DNA of 64,000 nucleotides, taken from the NCBI GenBank assembly GCA_930633525.1, contig CAKNFP010000001.1, positions 2,396,001 to 2,460,000 of the forward strand, written 5' to 3'. Positions within the stretch are counted from its first letter, which is position 1. Each line of letters begins with the position of its first letter. Below, in pieces: positions 58,231 through 64,000 of this stretch. The stretch comes from Hyphomicrobiales bacterium (GTDB taxonomy: Bacteria; Pseudomonadota; Alphaproteobacteria; Rhizobiales; Beijerinckiaceae). The position numbers were made by a program, and so were the translations under genes. The notes beneath the pieces are model-generated. The model saw nothing but the letters and a program-made list of their open reading frames with translations, searched no databases and was not told the DNA's origin.

Positions 58231-59439
58231 TCAGGACGTTGCCGCCTCGATATAGACGTCCCGCGTGATGCGGGCCGTCTCCCGCCAATTGCGAGTCGCG
58301 GCAGCGGTACGGCGGACATCCCGCATCGCCTCGGTTTCACCGCCCGCCTCGTCGCTGACCTGCTCGAAAGCCCGCGTCCACGCGGGCGTATCGAGCGGAT
58401 CGACCAGCAGTCCCTGGCCGAGCGCTGCCTCTTCCACGGCTCCGCCGCTGGCGACGACGACCCGAGACCCACAGGCGAGAGCTTCGGTGACGGGCATCCC
58501 GTATCCCTCGTAGATCGAGGGATAGAAGAAGCCCGCTGCGCCCCTATAGAGCGTGCGCAACACCACGTCATCGACATAGCCGGTAAAGCGGATCTGTCCG
58601 TCGCGCACCAGGGCCTCGGTGGCCGCCGGCCAATGCATCTCGCCCCATCCGGCCCCCCCGACCAGGACAAGCGGCATGGATGCACGACGCTCCGCAGGCA
58701 GGCGGCAATAGGCATCGACAAGCGTGCGCAGGTTCTTGCGGGGCTCAAGCGTCGATACGCTTAGGGCATACTGGCCTCGAGTGATCCCGAAGCGTGACAG
58801 CACAGCGCTATCCTCAGCCTGCGCCCGCTCGAAAAAGCGCGCATCGACGCCCGGATAGGCAACGCGAATGCGCTCCGGCGGAATCCCGATCAGATCGGTG
58901 ATTTCCCGGGCGGAAAACTCCGAAATCGTGAGCACGCGCGGGGCCTCCGCGATGGACCCGAGCCGGTTGTTGAACCACCGCACACGCTCCTCCGGATGGA
59001 GGTTCGGATGGCGCAGGACAGACATGTCGTAGATCTCGGGGATCGTCACCCGCCCGAGCGGCGCCGGCGCGAAGAAGTTCATGGCATGGAACACGTCGTA
59101 GCGCCCCTTGCCGACGCGGCCATGGTAGCGCCGCGCCAAGGCCCCGCCATAGCGCTCGAACACGGCGCGTGCGCGGATACCTATCTGCTTCTCAAGCCTA
59201 TCACCCCAATACTGGGCATTCCCGTTTTCGCGCGCCTTTGAAAAAGATACGAACTCCTCGATAGACCTCACCCGAAAGCCATCGAATACGTCAATCCTTA
59301 CCTCTTCATTATTACTGCCGAACGACGATTCACTCTGAGAAATATCAAAAACCGCCTTGACGACCTCAAGCGTATAGTGACCAATTCCGGTGAGGCGCGA
59401 TCGCACCGGTGTCACATCCACGCATACTGAAACAACCAT
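58231..59439 (-). CDS. Glycosyltransferase family 4 protein
   Basis: A 402-residue GT-B glycosyltransferase (VCVDVTPVRSRLTGIGHYTLEV at the start). VSTLEPRKNLRTLVDAYCRLP and the E-x7-E motif FYPSIYEGYGMPVTEALACG mark the GT4 nucleotide-sugar site. It resembles WbaZ-type mannosyl- or rhamnosyltransferases of O-antigen clusters. It is divergent from the methyltransferase gene with 265 bases between. Confidence 0.9.
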   Translation of the reverse strand: MVVSVCVDVTPVRSRLTGIGHYTLEVVKAVFDISQSESSFGSNNEEVRIDVFDGFRVRSIEEFVSFSKARENGNAQYWGDRLEKQIGIRARAVFERYGGALARRYHGRVGKGRYDVFHAMNFFAPAPLGRVTIPEIYDMSVLRHPNLHPEERVRWFNNRLGSIAEAPRVLTISEFSAREITDLIGIPPERIRVAYPGVDARFFERAQAEDSAVLSRFGITRGQYALSVSTLEPRKNLRTLVDAYCRLPAERRASMPLVLVGGAGWGEMHWPAATEALVRDGQIRFTGYVDDVVLRTLYRGAAGFFYPSIYEGYGMPVTEALACGSRVVVASGGAVEEAALGQGLLVDPLDTPAWTRAFEQVSDEAGGETEAMRDVRRTAAATRNWRETARITRDVYIEAATS

Positions 59440-59704: not shown

Positions 59705-60898
59705 GTGTCCCTACTCTTGAAACTTAAGATTGGCGTCGCACGCGTTCCATTCTTCGGCCCCCTCATTCGGCGCACATATCAGATGGCCACCGCGCCGGTG
59801 GCGATGGCACGCGCGGCTCGCCAGGAATTGCCGCGGCTTGGCCATGACATGGCCGACCTCGCCGAGCGTCTCACCCGTGTCGAGTATGAAGTACGCGATA
59901 TGCGCGCGGTCATCGAAAACGAGATTCGCTCAGTCATCGACCCCCGACGCATAGACCAACGTTTCGCCGAATTGCAGGCCCGCTCGGAGGCGAGCATTCA
60001 GGGAACTGTCGGCCAGACGGTGCAACGGCTGGACATGCGCATGCAGGGGCTGGAGCAGCGGGTGGCCGATGTCATGGACCGAGGCGACCACGAGTGGGGA
60101 GCCTCCCGGCGCTCGTATACGGAGCTTGCCCACCGACTCTCGCTGCTGCTCGAGGACGTGCGGAAGCTGCCGGCCGGCACATCCCGGTCTGATTTACAGG
60201 ATAAGGCCGATAGCATCCCGGATCCGCTCCTGACGACGTTCTATGCCACGTTCGAGGACCGCTTTCGCGGCTCTCGCGAGGACATCCGGGAACGCGTTTC
60301 GGTCTTCCTGCCGGAAGCGCAGGAGACTGTTGGCGCGGTCGGCAGCACGGGTCCTGTGGTGGATCTCGGCTGCGGCCGCGGAGAATGGCTGGAGGTGCTG
60401 TCGCGGGCGGGGATCCGCTGCCTCGGTGTCGACAACAACGAGGCGCAGCTCGCCAGTGCACGCGCGCACGGGCTGCCGGTGCTGAACGCCGACGCGCTCG
60501 CCTGGCTGAAGGAGCAGCCTCCCGCGTCGATACCGATGATTTCCGCCTTTCACCTCATCGAGCACTTGCCCTTTGCGGTGCTGACACAGTTCGCGTCCGA
60601 AGTCATGCGGGTGCTTGCGCCGGGCGGACTGGCGCTTTTCGAGACACCAAATCCCGAGAGCCTGCTGGTGGGCGCCTTCAGCTTCCATCTTGACCCGACC
60701 CATATCAAGCCGCTGCCGCCCGAACTCACCACCTGCCTGATGGAAGTGATCGGTTTCACGCCGGTGAAGATCCGTCCGCTTCACCCCCATCCCTGGCGCG
60801 ACCGCTATCTGCGCGACGGTGGCTTGCCCCAGGACGTGGCGCGCCTGCTCTTCGGACCGCGTGACTACGCCGTCCTCGCCCGCAAGCCGGGGGTCTGA
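59705..60898 (+). CDS. Coiled-coil class I methyltransferase (WbdD-like)
   Basis: A 397-residue protein from GTG at 59705. Residues about 35-155 are a predicted coiled coil (heptads in MADLAERLTRVEYEVRDMRA). From about 218 a class I SAM domain begins VVDLGCGRGEWLEVL, with ISAFHLIEHLPF and VLAPGGLALFETPNPESL. The combination of coiled coil and methyltransferase recalls WbdD, the chain terminator that caps and measures O9 O-antigen length. The coiled coil here is N-terminal rather than C-terminal. The fusion gene follows after four bases. Confidence 0.82.
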   Translation: MSLLLKLKIGVARVPFFGPLIRRTYQMATAPVAMARAARQELPRLGHDMADLAERLTRVEYEVRDMRAVIENEIRSVIDPRRIDQRFAELQARSEASIQGTVGQTVQRLDMRMQGLEQRVADVMDRGDHEWGASRRSYTELAHRLSLLLEDVRKLPAGTSRSDLQDKADSIPDPLLTTFYATFEDRFRGSREDIRERVSVFLPEAQETVGAVGSTGPVVDLGCGRGEWLEVLSRAGIRCLGVDNNEAQLASARAHGLPVLNADALAWLKEQPPASIPMISAFHLIEHLPFAVLTQFASEVMRVLAPGGLALFETPNPESLLVGAFSFHLDPTHIKPLPPELTTCLMEVIGFTPVKIRPLHPHPWRDRYLRDGGLPQDVARLLFGPRDYAVLARKPGV

Positions 60899-60902
60899 GG
60901 TC

Positions 60903-63260
60903 ATGCGTATCGCGATTATCACGGCTCAGGTGCCATTCGTTCGCGGCGGCGCTGAGTTGCTCGCCGACAGGCTCCGGGACCAGCTGCGCCTCTACGGGCA
61001 CAACGCCGAAATCGTCTCCCTGCCCTTCAAGTGGTATCCGCCGTCGACCCTGCTGGATCACATGGTGGCGGCCACGCTGACGGATTTCAGCAACTACAAT
61101 GCTGTCCCGGTGGATCTTGCCATCGGTCTCAAATTCCCAGCCTATCTCGGGCAGCATCCCAATATGGTGATGTGGCTGCTCCACCAGTATCGCGGCGCCT
61201 ATGATGAATGGGATTCCGGCCATGGCGACCTCCTCTTCCACGAGGATGGCAAGCTGGCGCGGGATGCGATCCGGCAGGCCGATAACCTCGCCATGCGACG
61301 CGCCAAGGCCGTTTTCACCATCTCCGAGAACGTCACCAAGCGGCTGCAGCGCTATAACGGGGTGCCTTCGACGGCGCTCTATCATCCGCCGCCGCTCGCG
61401 GAACGCCATGATTGCCGCGGCTACGAGGACTACCTTTATTTCCCGAGTCGGCTTTCCCTCCCCAAGCGCCAGTCGCTCGTGGTCGAGGCCCTGGCGCGAA
61501 CGCGCGCGCCGGTCAAGGTCATGTTCGCCGGGGCTGCCGATAACCCGCAGCAGGAGCTGGAGCTTCACGCGCTTGCCGTGAAGCTTGGGGTCGCCGACCG
61601 CGTGATCTGGCGCGGCGCGATCAACGACGAAGGCATGGTGGACGCCTACGCCCGCGCGAGGGCTGTCGTCTACCCGCCGCGCGATGAGGACTATGGCTAC
61701 GTGACGCTCGAGGCGATGCTGTCGCGCAAGGCCGTGGTGACCTGCGCGGATTCTGGTGGTCCACTCGAATTCGTGGAGGACGGCGTGAGCGGTTTCATTA
61801 CCGCGCCCGATCCAACCTCCCTCGCCGCGGCGATGGACGAAATCTGGGAGGACCCCGCACAGGCCGAGCGGATGGGTTCCGCCGCCTGGGATCGCTATCA
61901 ATCGATGGGCATCTCCTGGCAGAACGTCATCGCGCAGCTCACGAACGAGCACACTGAGGCTGCCACCGTGATCGACGCGCCTCCTGTGGCGCATAGGCCA
62001 AGCCCGAGCGCGGTCGTCGCCAGCGCCGTGCTTCCAGACATCGCGCCTGTCATCGCGAAGACAGGGATCGACAGCATCGCCGAACTCAGCAAGATTTTCG
62101 AGCTCGACGATGCCTTCAATACGCCGGACGCGGTGATCTACTACCAGCGCCACTTCATCCGCTATCTCACGTCGCTTGCGATGCTCGATCTCAAGCCAGG
62201 GATGCGCGTGCTGGATATCGGCGCTTCCGAGCCCTACGTCTTTGGCGCACTGCTGAAGCGCTATGCGCCCGATGTGTGGATATCCGCCGTCGAGGAGCGC
62301 GGTTCGGCAGCGCCGATGAACTACACGATCAAATCCAAGGTCACTGGCGTTCCTGATTTCGACGTGCATCGCGTCAAATGCAACGTCGAGCGCGAGAGGC
62401 TGCCGTTCCCCGACGCGAGCTTCGATGTCGTCCTGGCGATGGAGATCCTTGAACATCTGCCGGTCAATCCCGCCTTCTTCGCGGAGGAGATCGCGCGCGT
62501 CACGCGCCCCGGCGGCCAGGTTCTGGTGACGACGCCCAACATCACCTCGCATCAGTCGGCCGCGCGTCTCCTCAACGGCCATTCGCCCTACTCATTCGGC
62601 ATCTTCATGCCGCTGATGGGAATTCATGGGCGCCATCAGCGGGAGTGGACCCCCCACGAGGTGGAGTTGCTGATGCGCACGGCGGGCTTTGACACCGACC
62701 GCCTGTGCACGGCCGATGTCTATGACCAGGCGGTCGAGGCCAAGACCGCGGATGTGCTGATGGCCTGGCGCCGCAACCCGGTTCTCCTGGGCGAGACGAC
62801 ACTCTATCGCGGCACGCGGAACCTGCGCCCCTCCGAGGCGCCGCTCGAGCTCTACAGCTCCGATCCGCGGCGGTATCGTGGAGGAATTCTGGCCACGCGC
62901 CGTCGTCCGACCGATGCGGATGTGCAGGTCTCGCTGACGAACAAGAGCCCGGTATCCTGGTTTCACGATGGGTCAGATCCCGTGCAGCTTGAGGTCCGTT
63001 GGCTCAACGACGATGGAGAGCTGTCTCAGGAGTTCGTCAGGCTCGCCCTGCCCCGCAGCGTCGAGCCGGGCGAGACGCTCGATGTCCGGCTGCGCTTGGG
63101 AGAAGAGCCGGAGCGTTACGAGGGCGCGGCGAGCATCCGGCTGTTCCATCTCGGGCATGGATGGTTCGACATACTCGACACGACGAACTCTGTGCTGCTT
63201 CCGCTCAACCGCGCGACCTTCGAAGCCTTCATGGCCTCGCCCGAGCTCCGGGAAGCGTGA
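60903..63260 (+). CDS. Glycosyltransferase-methyltransferase fusion protein
   Basis: A 785-residue protein from the ATG at 60903. Residues 1-370 are a GT4 glycosyltransferase: FPSRLSLPKRQSLVVEALAR and the E-x7-E motif EDYGYVTLEAMLSRKAVVTC (Glu near 262). After a Pro/Ala linker, residues about 425-640 are a class I methyltransferase (VLDIGASEPYVFGALL, MEILEHLPVNPAF, VTRPGGQVLVTTPN). Residues about 660-785 are a beta-sandwich with the Ig-like pattern of glycan-enzyme tails (VSLTNKSPVSW, VEPGETLDVRLRL, HGWFDIL). It probably adds and methylates sugars on one chain. The stop overlaps the next gene by one base (TGATG). Confidence 0.88.
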   Translation: MRIAIITAQVPFVRGGAELLADRLRDQLRLYGHNAEIVSLPFKWYPPSTLLDHMVAATLTDFSNYNAVPVDLAIGLKFPAYLGQHPNMVMWLLHQYRGAYDEWDSGHGDLLFHEDGKLARDAIRQADNLAMRRAKAVFTISENVTKRLQRYNGVPSTALYHPPPLAERHDCRGYEDYLYFPSRLSLPKRQSLVVEALARTRAPVKVMFAGAADNPQQELELHALAVKLGVADRVIWRGAINDEGMVDAYARARAVVYPPRDEDYGYVTLEAMLSRKAVVTCADSGGPLEFVEDGVSGFITAPDPTSLAAAMDEIWEDPAQAERMGSAAWDRYQSMGISWQNVIAQLTNEHTEAATVIDAPPVAHRPSPSAVVASAVLPDIAPVIAKTGIDSIAELSKIFELDDAFNTPDAVIYYQRHFIRYLTSLAMLDLKPGMRVLDIGASEPYVFGALLKRYAPDVWISAVEERGSAAPMNYTIKSKVTGVPDFDVHRVKCNVERERLPFPDASFDVVLAMEILEHLPVNPAFFAEEIARVTRPGGQVLVTTPNITSHQSAARLLNGHSPYSFGIFMPLMGIHGRHQREWTPHEVELLMRTAGFDTDRLCTADVYDQAVEAKTADVLMAWRRNPVLLGETTLYRGTRNLRPSEAPLELYSSDPRRYRGGILATRRRPTDADVQVSLTNKSPVSWFHDGSDPVQLEVRWLNDDGELSQEFVRLALPRSVEPGETLDVRLRLGEEPERYEGAASIRLFHLGHGWFDILDTTNSVLLPLNRATFEAFMASPELREA

Positions 63261-64000
63261 TGCCCGCGCAGCCCGCTCGCCCCCTGGTGGACTGGTTTTC
63301 GCCGCTGCCGCCAGCACGCAGTGATATCGCCCATTTCTCCGCGCGCATCCTGCCCGCCCTCGCGGCTCGTGCCGACGTCCGTCTGTGGACCGACCAGCCC
63401 GGATCGGACCCCGCGCTGGCCCGGCATGCGGAGGTCATTGTCTATGATCCGCGCAGCATCGACCTGGGCAAGCTGAACAAAAGCAATCTCATCTTTTACA
63501 ACATGGGCAACGACGGACGCTTCCACGCCGCGATCCGTGAGGTCATGTTCAAGGTGCCGGGCGTGCTCGTGGCGCACGAGCTGAGCTATCACCACTCCAT
63601 GTACTGGGACTACATGGTTCGCCGGAAGGATCCCGCGGCCTACCTTGCCTTGGTCGAGCAACGCTATGGCGCCGAGGGGCTGCTCGCCGCCAAGCAGCAC
63701 ATGGAGAAAGGCAAGCCGCATATCGATGATCTGGCGCGTCAGTACCCGTTCATCGACTATCTCGCCGATGCCTCGCTGGCCGTCGTGTGCCATACGGCGG
63801 CCGTCGAGGAAGCCGTGACGGCGCGCGGCGTCGGAGCACTGAGGTTGCCCCTCGCCTTCCAGGCTCCGCCGAACCCGCCCTCGAAATCCAGAACATCGGG
63901 TGTCCTGGAGTTCGTGCAATTCGGGTATATCGGCCCGCAACGCCGCCTCTTCAGCATACTCGGGGCGCTCGCTCGCTTTCGGGACAAGCATCCCTTTCGC
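63260..64000 (+). CDS. Glycosyltransferase (partial, cut by the window end)
   Basis: An open frame runs from the ATG at 63260 through the right edge, 247 codons. The N-terminus VDWFSPLPPARSDIAHFSAR and the stretch YNMGNDGRFHAAIREVMFKV, with HELSYHHSMYWDYM, are typical of the acceptor domain of GT4-type transferases, and EFVQFGYIGPQRRLFSILGA begins the donor domain. The ATG overlaps the fusion gene stop by one base, so the two are translationally coupled. The catalytic E-x7-E motif lies beyond the window. Confidence 0.82.
   Translation, partial: MPAQPARPLVDWFSPLPPARSDIAHFSARILPALAARADVRLWTDQPGSDPALARHAEVIVYDPRSIDLGKLNKSNLIFYNMGNDGRFHAAIREVMFKVPGVLVAHELSYHHSMYWDYMVRRKDPAAYLALVEQRYGAEGLLAAKQHMEKGKPHIDDLARQYPFIDYLADASLAVVCHTAAVEEAVTARGVGALRLPLAFQAPPNPPSKSRTSGVLEFVQFGYIGPQRRLFSILGALARFRDKHPFR

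Follow-up and report, generated by a model that had tools for sequence, protein, structure and literature searches.

The window studied here is the whole 64,000-nucleotide stretch that was analysed (C1:2396001-2460000 within a 7.16-Mb genome), from a bacterium that we call Chelatococcus, a genome survey having placed it in the same genus as C. asaccharovorans DSM 6462 (G677). Near its end lies a gene (60903..63260, + strand) that joins a family 4 glycosyltransferase (GT4) domain, a methyltransferase domain, and a beta-rich tail in one chain, and that forms the middle member of a conserved trio: a coiled-coil methyltransferase, the fused enzyme, and a second glycosyltransferase-like protein (GT3). 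Relatives of this gene often lie beside genes for the export of surface proteins, which suggests that the fused enzyme helps to make a methylated anchoring sugar. We favor, at a probability of roughly 55%, the reading that the trio builds or methylates a surface glycan to which proteins secreted by type I secretion systems (T1SS) are anchored.

The fused gene starts with ATG and encodes 785 residues. Its GT4 domain (residues 1-350; 60903..61952, +), delimited with an alignment of 11 relatives, matches PF13692 and PF00534 (the latter at residues 175-328, E 1.9e-24, 86.6 bits against a curated cut-off of 26.4), and its methyltransferase domain (residues 396-640; 62088..62822, +) matches PF08241 and PF13489 (the latter at residues 417-598, E 1.8e-12, 47.8 bits against a cut-off of 27). 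Between them runs a fast-evolving linker (residues 351-395; 61953..62087, +), and a C-terminal beta-rich tail (residues 641-785; 62823..63257, +), assigned to no named family by Pfam, profile searches, or a structural model, completes the chain. Pfam and the open frame thus bear out the original prediction, made from the letters of the window, that both enzymatic domains share one 785-residue frame.

The fusion is not the product of an assembly frameshift, because the orthologue in the independent assembly of C. asaccharovorans DSM 6462 aligns over 785/785 residues without a gap, is 88% identical, and keeps the same frame intact across the glycosyltransferase-methyltransferase junction; together with the full-length copies in genomes G678 and G679, this rules such a frameshift out. 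The locus L037 comes from the same strain as L009 and is not independent. Ratios of nonsynonymous to synonymous substitution (dN/dS) against C. asaccharovorans are 0.044 for GT4, 0.387 for the linker, 0.076 for the methyltransferase, and 0.125 for the tail, so that the linker stands out against 0.04-0.13 in the flanking domains; against G679, the same four regions give 0.017, 0.254, 0.037, and 0.087. These ratios rule out a chance or non-coding frame. GT4, methyltransferase, and tail are all under purifying selection, and the plain reading of the alignments would be three constrained domains joined by one probably flexible linker.

The E-x7-E motif of the GT4 domain (E262/E270; 61686-61712, +) is present, as predicted, in 6/6 fused proteins aligned, shifted to 263/271 in three relatives. 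The companion claim of an intact S-adenosylmethionine (SAM) motif needs correcting, because the canonical [DE]xGxGxG (G-x-G-x-G motif I) is missing in 6/6 of the same proteins, which carry D/N-[IV]-G-x-x-x-P-x-[VA]-F in its place (D438-F447 here; 62214-62243, +). A segment reading M-E-I-x-E-H-L is invariant in the methyltransferase domain of the fused proteins, and the upstream methyltransferase of the trio has a canonical SAM motif at residue 220. A full-length AlphaFold model, built from a two-row alignment, reached a pLDDT of 34.

The tail had been called Ig-like, making a three-domain protein; three regions do share one frame, but the Ig-like identity of the third is not established. The window's tail matches no Pfam family at E up to 10, the tails of two distant relatives weakly match N_BRCA1_IG (E 0.12), NPCBM_assoc (E 0.047), and DUF2808 (E 0.0059), and one roseobacter tail weakly matches TED (E 0.19). 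Searched against the PDB, a tail profile returned three chance-level matches, the strongest at E 0.27; designed Ig-like proteins made up two of the three. The AlphaFold model of the tail is poor (pLDDT 49.5) and all-beta with a terminal helix; Foldseek found no match to it at E up to 0.001, and its list comprised carbohydrate-binding modules, other beta-sandwiches, and unrelated proteins. A Wzt C-terminal glycan-binding domain was rejected as the identity of the tail, with no PF14524 match at E up to 10 in five tails. By itself, the tail was detected in 4/385 genomes of the class, our own included, the other three matches being weak (E 8.9e-8, 2.5e-4, and 6.1e-4). It also occurs as a separate 227-aa protein adjoining a homologue-looking methyltransferase (L012, 1375-2058, -), and as the N-terminal part of a different methyltransferase protein, encoded close to a pair of ABC-2 permease and ATPase genes (L013, 829-2223, -).

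The surroundings of the fused gene are tightly packed. Upstream lies a class I methyltransferase (59705..60898, +; assigned by Pfam and synteny), whose N-terminal coiled coil is named after the original prediction, and downstream lies GT3 (63260..64000, +), a 440-aa frame that runs past the window end and whose best Pfam score, 24.5 bits, is just under the cut-off of 27. The four-base gap upstream, where the methyltransferase stop ends at 60898, and the one-base overlap (TGATG) with the next gene at 63260 are both as first described. By sequence, the trio order of methyltransferase, GT4-methyltransferase-tail, and GT3 recurs in the roseobacter loci L015, L016, L017, and L019; by annotation, it recurs in L071-L074. 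A GT4-methyltransferase single chain inside a conserved glycan gene set is well supported by Pfam, the orthologue, synteny, and dN/dS. In L018, Smac51, three rhizobial plasmids, and the genomes G683 and G979, the GT4 protein is a stand-alone one with neither methyltransferase nor tail; L018 retains the trio even though both parts are missing from its GT4 protein.

In Chelatococcus, the trio is part of a seven-gene island comprising a divergent GT4, the three trio genes, gmd, and two more glycosyltransferases; L009, L065, and L066 have all seven, arranged identically. The divergent GT4 glycosyltransferase (58231..59439, -; Pfam) forms the island edge and has the same place in those three loci. 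The gmd gene scores 447.6 bits against a cut-off of 415 and is the second gene downstream of the fused gene, on the opposite strand. No exporter or polymerase was found among the seven genes (not every flanking gene was scanned), perA, perB, and rsa genes were absent among the island genes scanned, and neither Pfam nor hhalign detected DUF4214 in the upstream methyltransferase.

Full-length copies of the fused gene are rare in the genome surveys and recurrent on plasmids. A full-length copy was found in 1/297 genomes of the order, our own only (E 1e-20), whereas a search of 41 relatives at E 1e-12 gave seven matches, four of them full-length and three to the GT4 part only; the full-length copies fall in 4/4 genomes of the genus in that set (our own, G677, G678, and G679). 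When a profile built from the GT4 part was used at E 1e-40, it matched 1/385 class genomes and 2/398 phylum genomes, our own included. These surveys score the best few candidates per genome (three in the order, five in the class and phylum), and copies may therefore have been missed. Among plasmid records, 74 match, and in 39 of them the copy spans 80% or more of the query; these 39, at 37.9-41.7% identity, are all from roseobacters (Pseudosulfitobacter 31, Sulfitobacter 7, Ruegeria 1, with many near-identical strains). In a quick tree of nine out of ten fused proteins (L073 was left out), the nine group with L018 at a support of 83, with L018 at the base of the roseobacter side. A single fusion followed by a single loss would predict this topology, although two fusions would also fit it, and the tree warns of long branches for both G979 copies, G683b, and one outgroup.

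More telling for function than the window itself are the neighbors of these relatives. Eight of the 39 roseobacter loci, spanning three genera, were examined (L015, L016, L017, L019, L071, L072, L073, and L074); T1SS genes are present in seven, DUF4214 genes in seven, and both in six. The T1SS exception is L071, where the start of the record truncates the stretch, and the DUF4214 exception is L017, by annotation. In L015, L019, L072, L073, and L074, a T1SS ABC gene and HlyD stand directly before the trio and a DUF4214 gene follows directly or one gene after it; the DUF4214 protein adjoining the L015 trio also bears RTX repeats. Small DUF6447 proteins and a helix-turn-helix regulator were seen near these clusters in L016, L017, L019, L072, L073, and L074, and a helix-turn-helix regulator in L015.

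Outside the roseobacters, the three rhizobial plasmids (L021, L022, and L023) carry DUF4214 genes on both sides of the trio, and in these and in G683 the trio's own methyltransferase carries a DUF4214 domain. Proteins with both DUF4214 and methyltransferase lie at L021 10511-11998, L022 10505-11998, L023 10490-11998, L062 9218-10792, and L063 9607-11412. G683 also contains a second copy of the GT core, whose DUF4214 neighbor scores just below the cut-off (21.3 vs 23.2). The third trio gene of the rhizobia is 793-799 aa long (L021 13095-15476, L022 13092-15491, L023 13095-15476), and in L021, the one scanned, it shows two GT4 stretches; its first part is a relative of the fused enzyme's GT4 domain. 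In P. flavum, Wzt (PF14524, E 5e-37) and Wzm lie ~1 kb after the trio. In G641, which has no GT core at the threshold used (E 1e-40), an ABC-2 permease stands with its ATPase, the pair having no Wzt C-terminal domain, between a DUF4214-methyltransferase and a methyltransferase that bears the tail; the G641 ATPase has a homologue in our genome at C1:4223560, and the surrounding 39 kb held no trio match among the longest non-overlapping frames and no DUF4214 match. In Smac51, gmd directly precedes the GT core, and neither T1SS nor DUF4214 is annotated.

The GT4 domain is also homologous to proteins of a Caulobacter-type S-layer and O-antigen-type locus in G979. There, a perosamine synthetase (E 1.4e-229 to 3bn1) and a TolC-type protein (TIGR01844, 227.1 bits against a cut-off of 225.15) enclose two stand-alone relatives of the GT4 domain, one 38% identical to it (E 2e-71) and the other 36% (E 1e-60). 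The row before the pair includes a perosamine N-acetyltransferase (E 6e-106 to 4ea7) and the T1SS genes HlyD (TIGR01843) and a PrtD-type ABC gene (TIGR01842). An RsaA-like S-layer protein, encoded in the same row, matches RsaA at both ends (5n8p, E 1.6e-89; 6t72, E 1.4e-31 over 2-250).

We propose that the fused protein would work in the cytoplasm, building a glycan with two enzyme activities. The GT4 domain would add a hexose or 6-deoxyhexose to a surface glycan from a donor that is perhaps a GDP sugar, because gmd lies so close downstream. The protein's own methyltransferase domain, the upstream methyltransferase, and GT3 would together methylate the sugar as a terminal or branch residue, with the acceptor perhaps held by the beta-rich tail; what the fused enzyme makes could be a methylated repeat or cap, as originally proposed. 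The product would be a lipopolysaccharide (LPS)-type glycan that anchors type I-secreted surface proteins, namely DUF4214 proteins in roseobacters, rhizobia, and Chelatococcus and the RsaA-like S-layer protein in the Caulobacter-type locus. We infer the donor, the acceptor, the methyl position, and the anchoring, and likewise that the Chelatococcus gene does what its relatives' neighbors suggest.

How DUF4214 is distributed bears directly on this proposal. Our genome has 44 DUF4214 matches at E up to 0.01, and G677, G678, G679, and G683 have 34, 36, 41, and 16. In the class sample, 10/385 genomes, our own included, have any DUF4214 at E 1e-5. Of the six genomes with the GT core (our own, G677, G678, G679, G683, and G979), five have many DUF4214 domains, four of these five belonging to one genus. 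The GT core therefore mostly goes with DUF4214, not the reverse. All ten Chelatococcus DUF4214 frames scanned carry the domain, and some add GDPD, GH16, FG-GAP, or RTX parts; among the stretches around DUF4214 in our genome, 2/19 (L045 and L056) hold a clear T1SS ABC gene with HlyD. The length filter reduced 48 DUF4214 matches to 41 units, of which 34 entered a profile that, searched against the PDB at E up to 1, retrieved 47 distinct sequences: 44 phycobilisome chains (two named only Glr2806 and Glr1262, in an entry that also holds ApcE) and three of RsaA. The best RsaA match (E 0.034) covers residues 59-102 (6t72), inside the O-antigen-binding domain. This putative relation between DUF4214 and RsaA is a lead only.

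Several observations weigh against the anchoring proposal. In Chelatococcus itself, the search of the island turned up no T1SS, DUF4214, or perosamine gene, and ~160 kb separate it from the nearest DUF4214 match. Among the relatives, L017, L018, and Smac51 have no annotated DUF4214 neighbor, no T1SS was detected in Smac51 or in any of the three rhizobial stretches, and the roseobacter clusters have too few genes to build a glycan alone. G979 has the GT core without a Pfam DUF4214, and no gmd was found within the 38 kb surrounding its locus. Conversely, DUF4214 occurs without the GT core in 9/384 other class genomes and in 3/32 further genomes (G687, 1/8; G136 and G691, 2/24), the set of eight also containing one more, weak, match in G686, and some of the 32 being in the class sample as well. 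The methyltransferase domain may be inactive, given its odd motif I. As for RsaA, a 9-row DUF4214 profile gave it E 0.05, with four unrelated PDB chains from E 0.15 on, and hhalign of DUF4214 against the N-terminus of the G979 S-layer protein was weak (probability 1.9%, E 0.026).

The main rival is that, while DUF4214 proteins are still in the cytoplasm awaiting type I secretion, the trio places a methylated sugar or short glycan directly on them, an idea modelled on serine-rich-repeat adhesins, which receive their sugars from co-encoded Gtf enzymes and leave the cell through accessory Sec. Such a role would suit the way in which exporter, three glycan genes, and secreted protein often make up one roseobacter cluster, as well as the five roseobacter stretches without an annotated polysaccharide polymerase or Wzm/Wzt-type exporter (in a gene table that is incomplete), and where DUF4214 is fused to the methyltransferase of the trio, it could serve for docking. 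We nonetheless consider it unlikely: Wzt and Wzm lie near the P. flavum trio and an ABC-2 pair beside the G641 DUF4214-methyltransferase, the GT4 relatives sit in an O-antigen-type operon, and 32 DUF4214-type frames show no consistent Ser+Thr-rich stretch, their richest 60-residue windows ranging from 12 to 40% Ser+Thr (no search aimed at a common glycosylation site was made). Still less probable, in our judgment, is an ordinary LPS-core or exopolysaccharide gene that has no special link to secreted proteins and whose plasmid neighbors are hitch-hikers. The Chelatococcus island, with gmd, four further glycosyltransferase-like genes, and no T1SS or DUF4214 found, would be what such a gene predicts, and a passage of PMC13386836 describes a plasmid from Sulfitobacter that bears glycosyltransferases together with rfbABCD; yet T1SS and DUF4214 occur together in 6/8 roseobacter loci of three genera, DUF4214 is fused into the pathway's own methyltransferase, and G979 offers an S-layer locus.

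A further alternative, compatible with any of these, is that the methyltransferase domain has no catalytic role and serves as a scaffold or for binding, so that the protein would be a glycosyltransferase only. The canonical motif I missing from 6/6 fused proteins would be explained in this way, as would the L018 relative, in which the trio is kept without methyltransferase and tail; set against a dN/dS of 0.076, the invariant M-E-I-x-E-H-L segment, and Pfam scores above the cut-off, we regard it as somewhat doubtful. Returning to anchoring, a bolder extension, which we hold tentatively and would not yet bet on, is that DUF4214, as a remote relative of the O-antigen-binding domain of RsaA, works as a sorting module that binds LPS glycan and in each genome fastens to the outer membrane many different enzymes and adhesins secreted by type I systems, the trio making the methylated glycan that DUF4214 reads. 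If so, DUF4214 would be a Gram-negative counterpart of SLH domains with their modified cell-wall polysaccharide, and the DUF4214-methyltransferase fusions would be readers of their own product.

The holding of type I-secreted proteins at Gram-negative surfaces is understood in structural detail for few cases, RsaA included, according to part of PMC6978808. Were the anchoring reading true, orphan DUF4214 surface proteins would gain a defined ligand, and the question would become testable in several genera, as the trio travels with exporters and DUF4214 genes on plasmids; the fused enzyme would then be a compact, one-chain way of adding and methylating a sugar. DUF4214 has been termed likely surface-anchoring in segmented filamentous bacteria (PMC12780176) and is thought to form an S-layer-anchored enzyme in Dechloromonas (PMC11970703), and the passages of these two papers on DUF4214 surface proteins draw no link to a glycan pathway. 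Our literature search found nothing tying DUF4214 to glycosyltransferases and type I secretion.

One of the closest known systems is that of Caulobacter. Passages of PMC5749776 describe a C. crescentus operon of gmd1, perB, perA, two predicted O-antigen glycosyltransferases, and rsaFa, and a gmd1 gmd2 double mutant that sheds its S-layer; part of PMC10746521 likewise puts perA and rsaFa in one operon. The N-terminal domain of RsaA binds an O-antigen bearing a 3-O-methyl-glucose branch (PMC6978808, in part), and rsaD and rsaE lie beside rsaA, whose N-terminal region is shared by a protease (PMC3034196, in part). The likeness of our enzyme to the rsa/per glycosyltransferases (given as CCNA_01065/01066 in PMC5749776) runs via the G979 copies only, at 36-38% identity over the whole GT4 domain. 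Compared with the rsa/per-type locus, Chelatococcus has gmd close by and most roseobacter loci seen have T1SS close by. The rsa/per glycosyltransferases have no fused methyltransferase or tail, unlike the Chelatococcus enzyme, and perosamine and rsa genes were not found alongside the Chelatococcus gene, unlike in the Caulobacter-type locus.

Two further systems resemble parts of the trio. WbdD, the cap enzyme of E. coli O8/O9, combines a methyltransferase with a coiled coil, a layout like that of our upstream methyltransferase, and also has a kinase domain, unlike the latter. Glycosyltransferases and methyltransferases of surface glycans are normally separate proteins, and this statement of the original prediction stands as a general rule, with WsaE of Geobacillus stearothermophilus as a published fused precedent (PMC2943079). 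In the portions of that paper on which we draw, WsaE is a methyltransferase fused to two glycosyltransferases (rhamnosyltransferases), with an assigned role in a 2-O-methyl cap, so that a glycosyltransferase-methyltransferase fusion for a surface glycan is already known. Like the fused enzyme, WsaE unites both activities in one chain and is tied, through an S-layer, to a surface glycan. The two are likened by domain layout, with the order reversed: WsaE has its methyltransferase first, followed by two glycosyltransferase domains, whereas the Chelatococcus enzyme runs from GT4 through methyltransferase to tail. The kind of attachment differs as well, the WsaE glycan being transferred onto the S-layer protein, with predicted Wzm/Wzt export (PMC2943079), whereas the glycan of the trio would serve as an anchor for secreted proteins.

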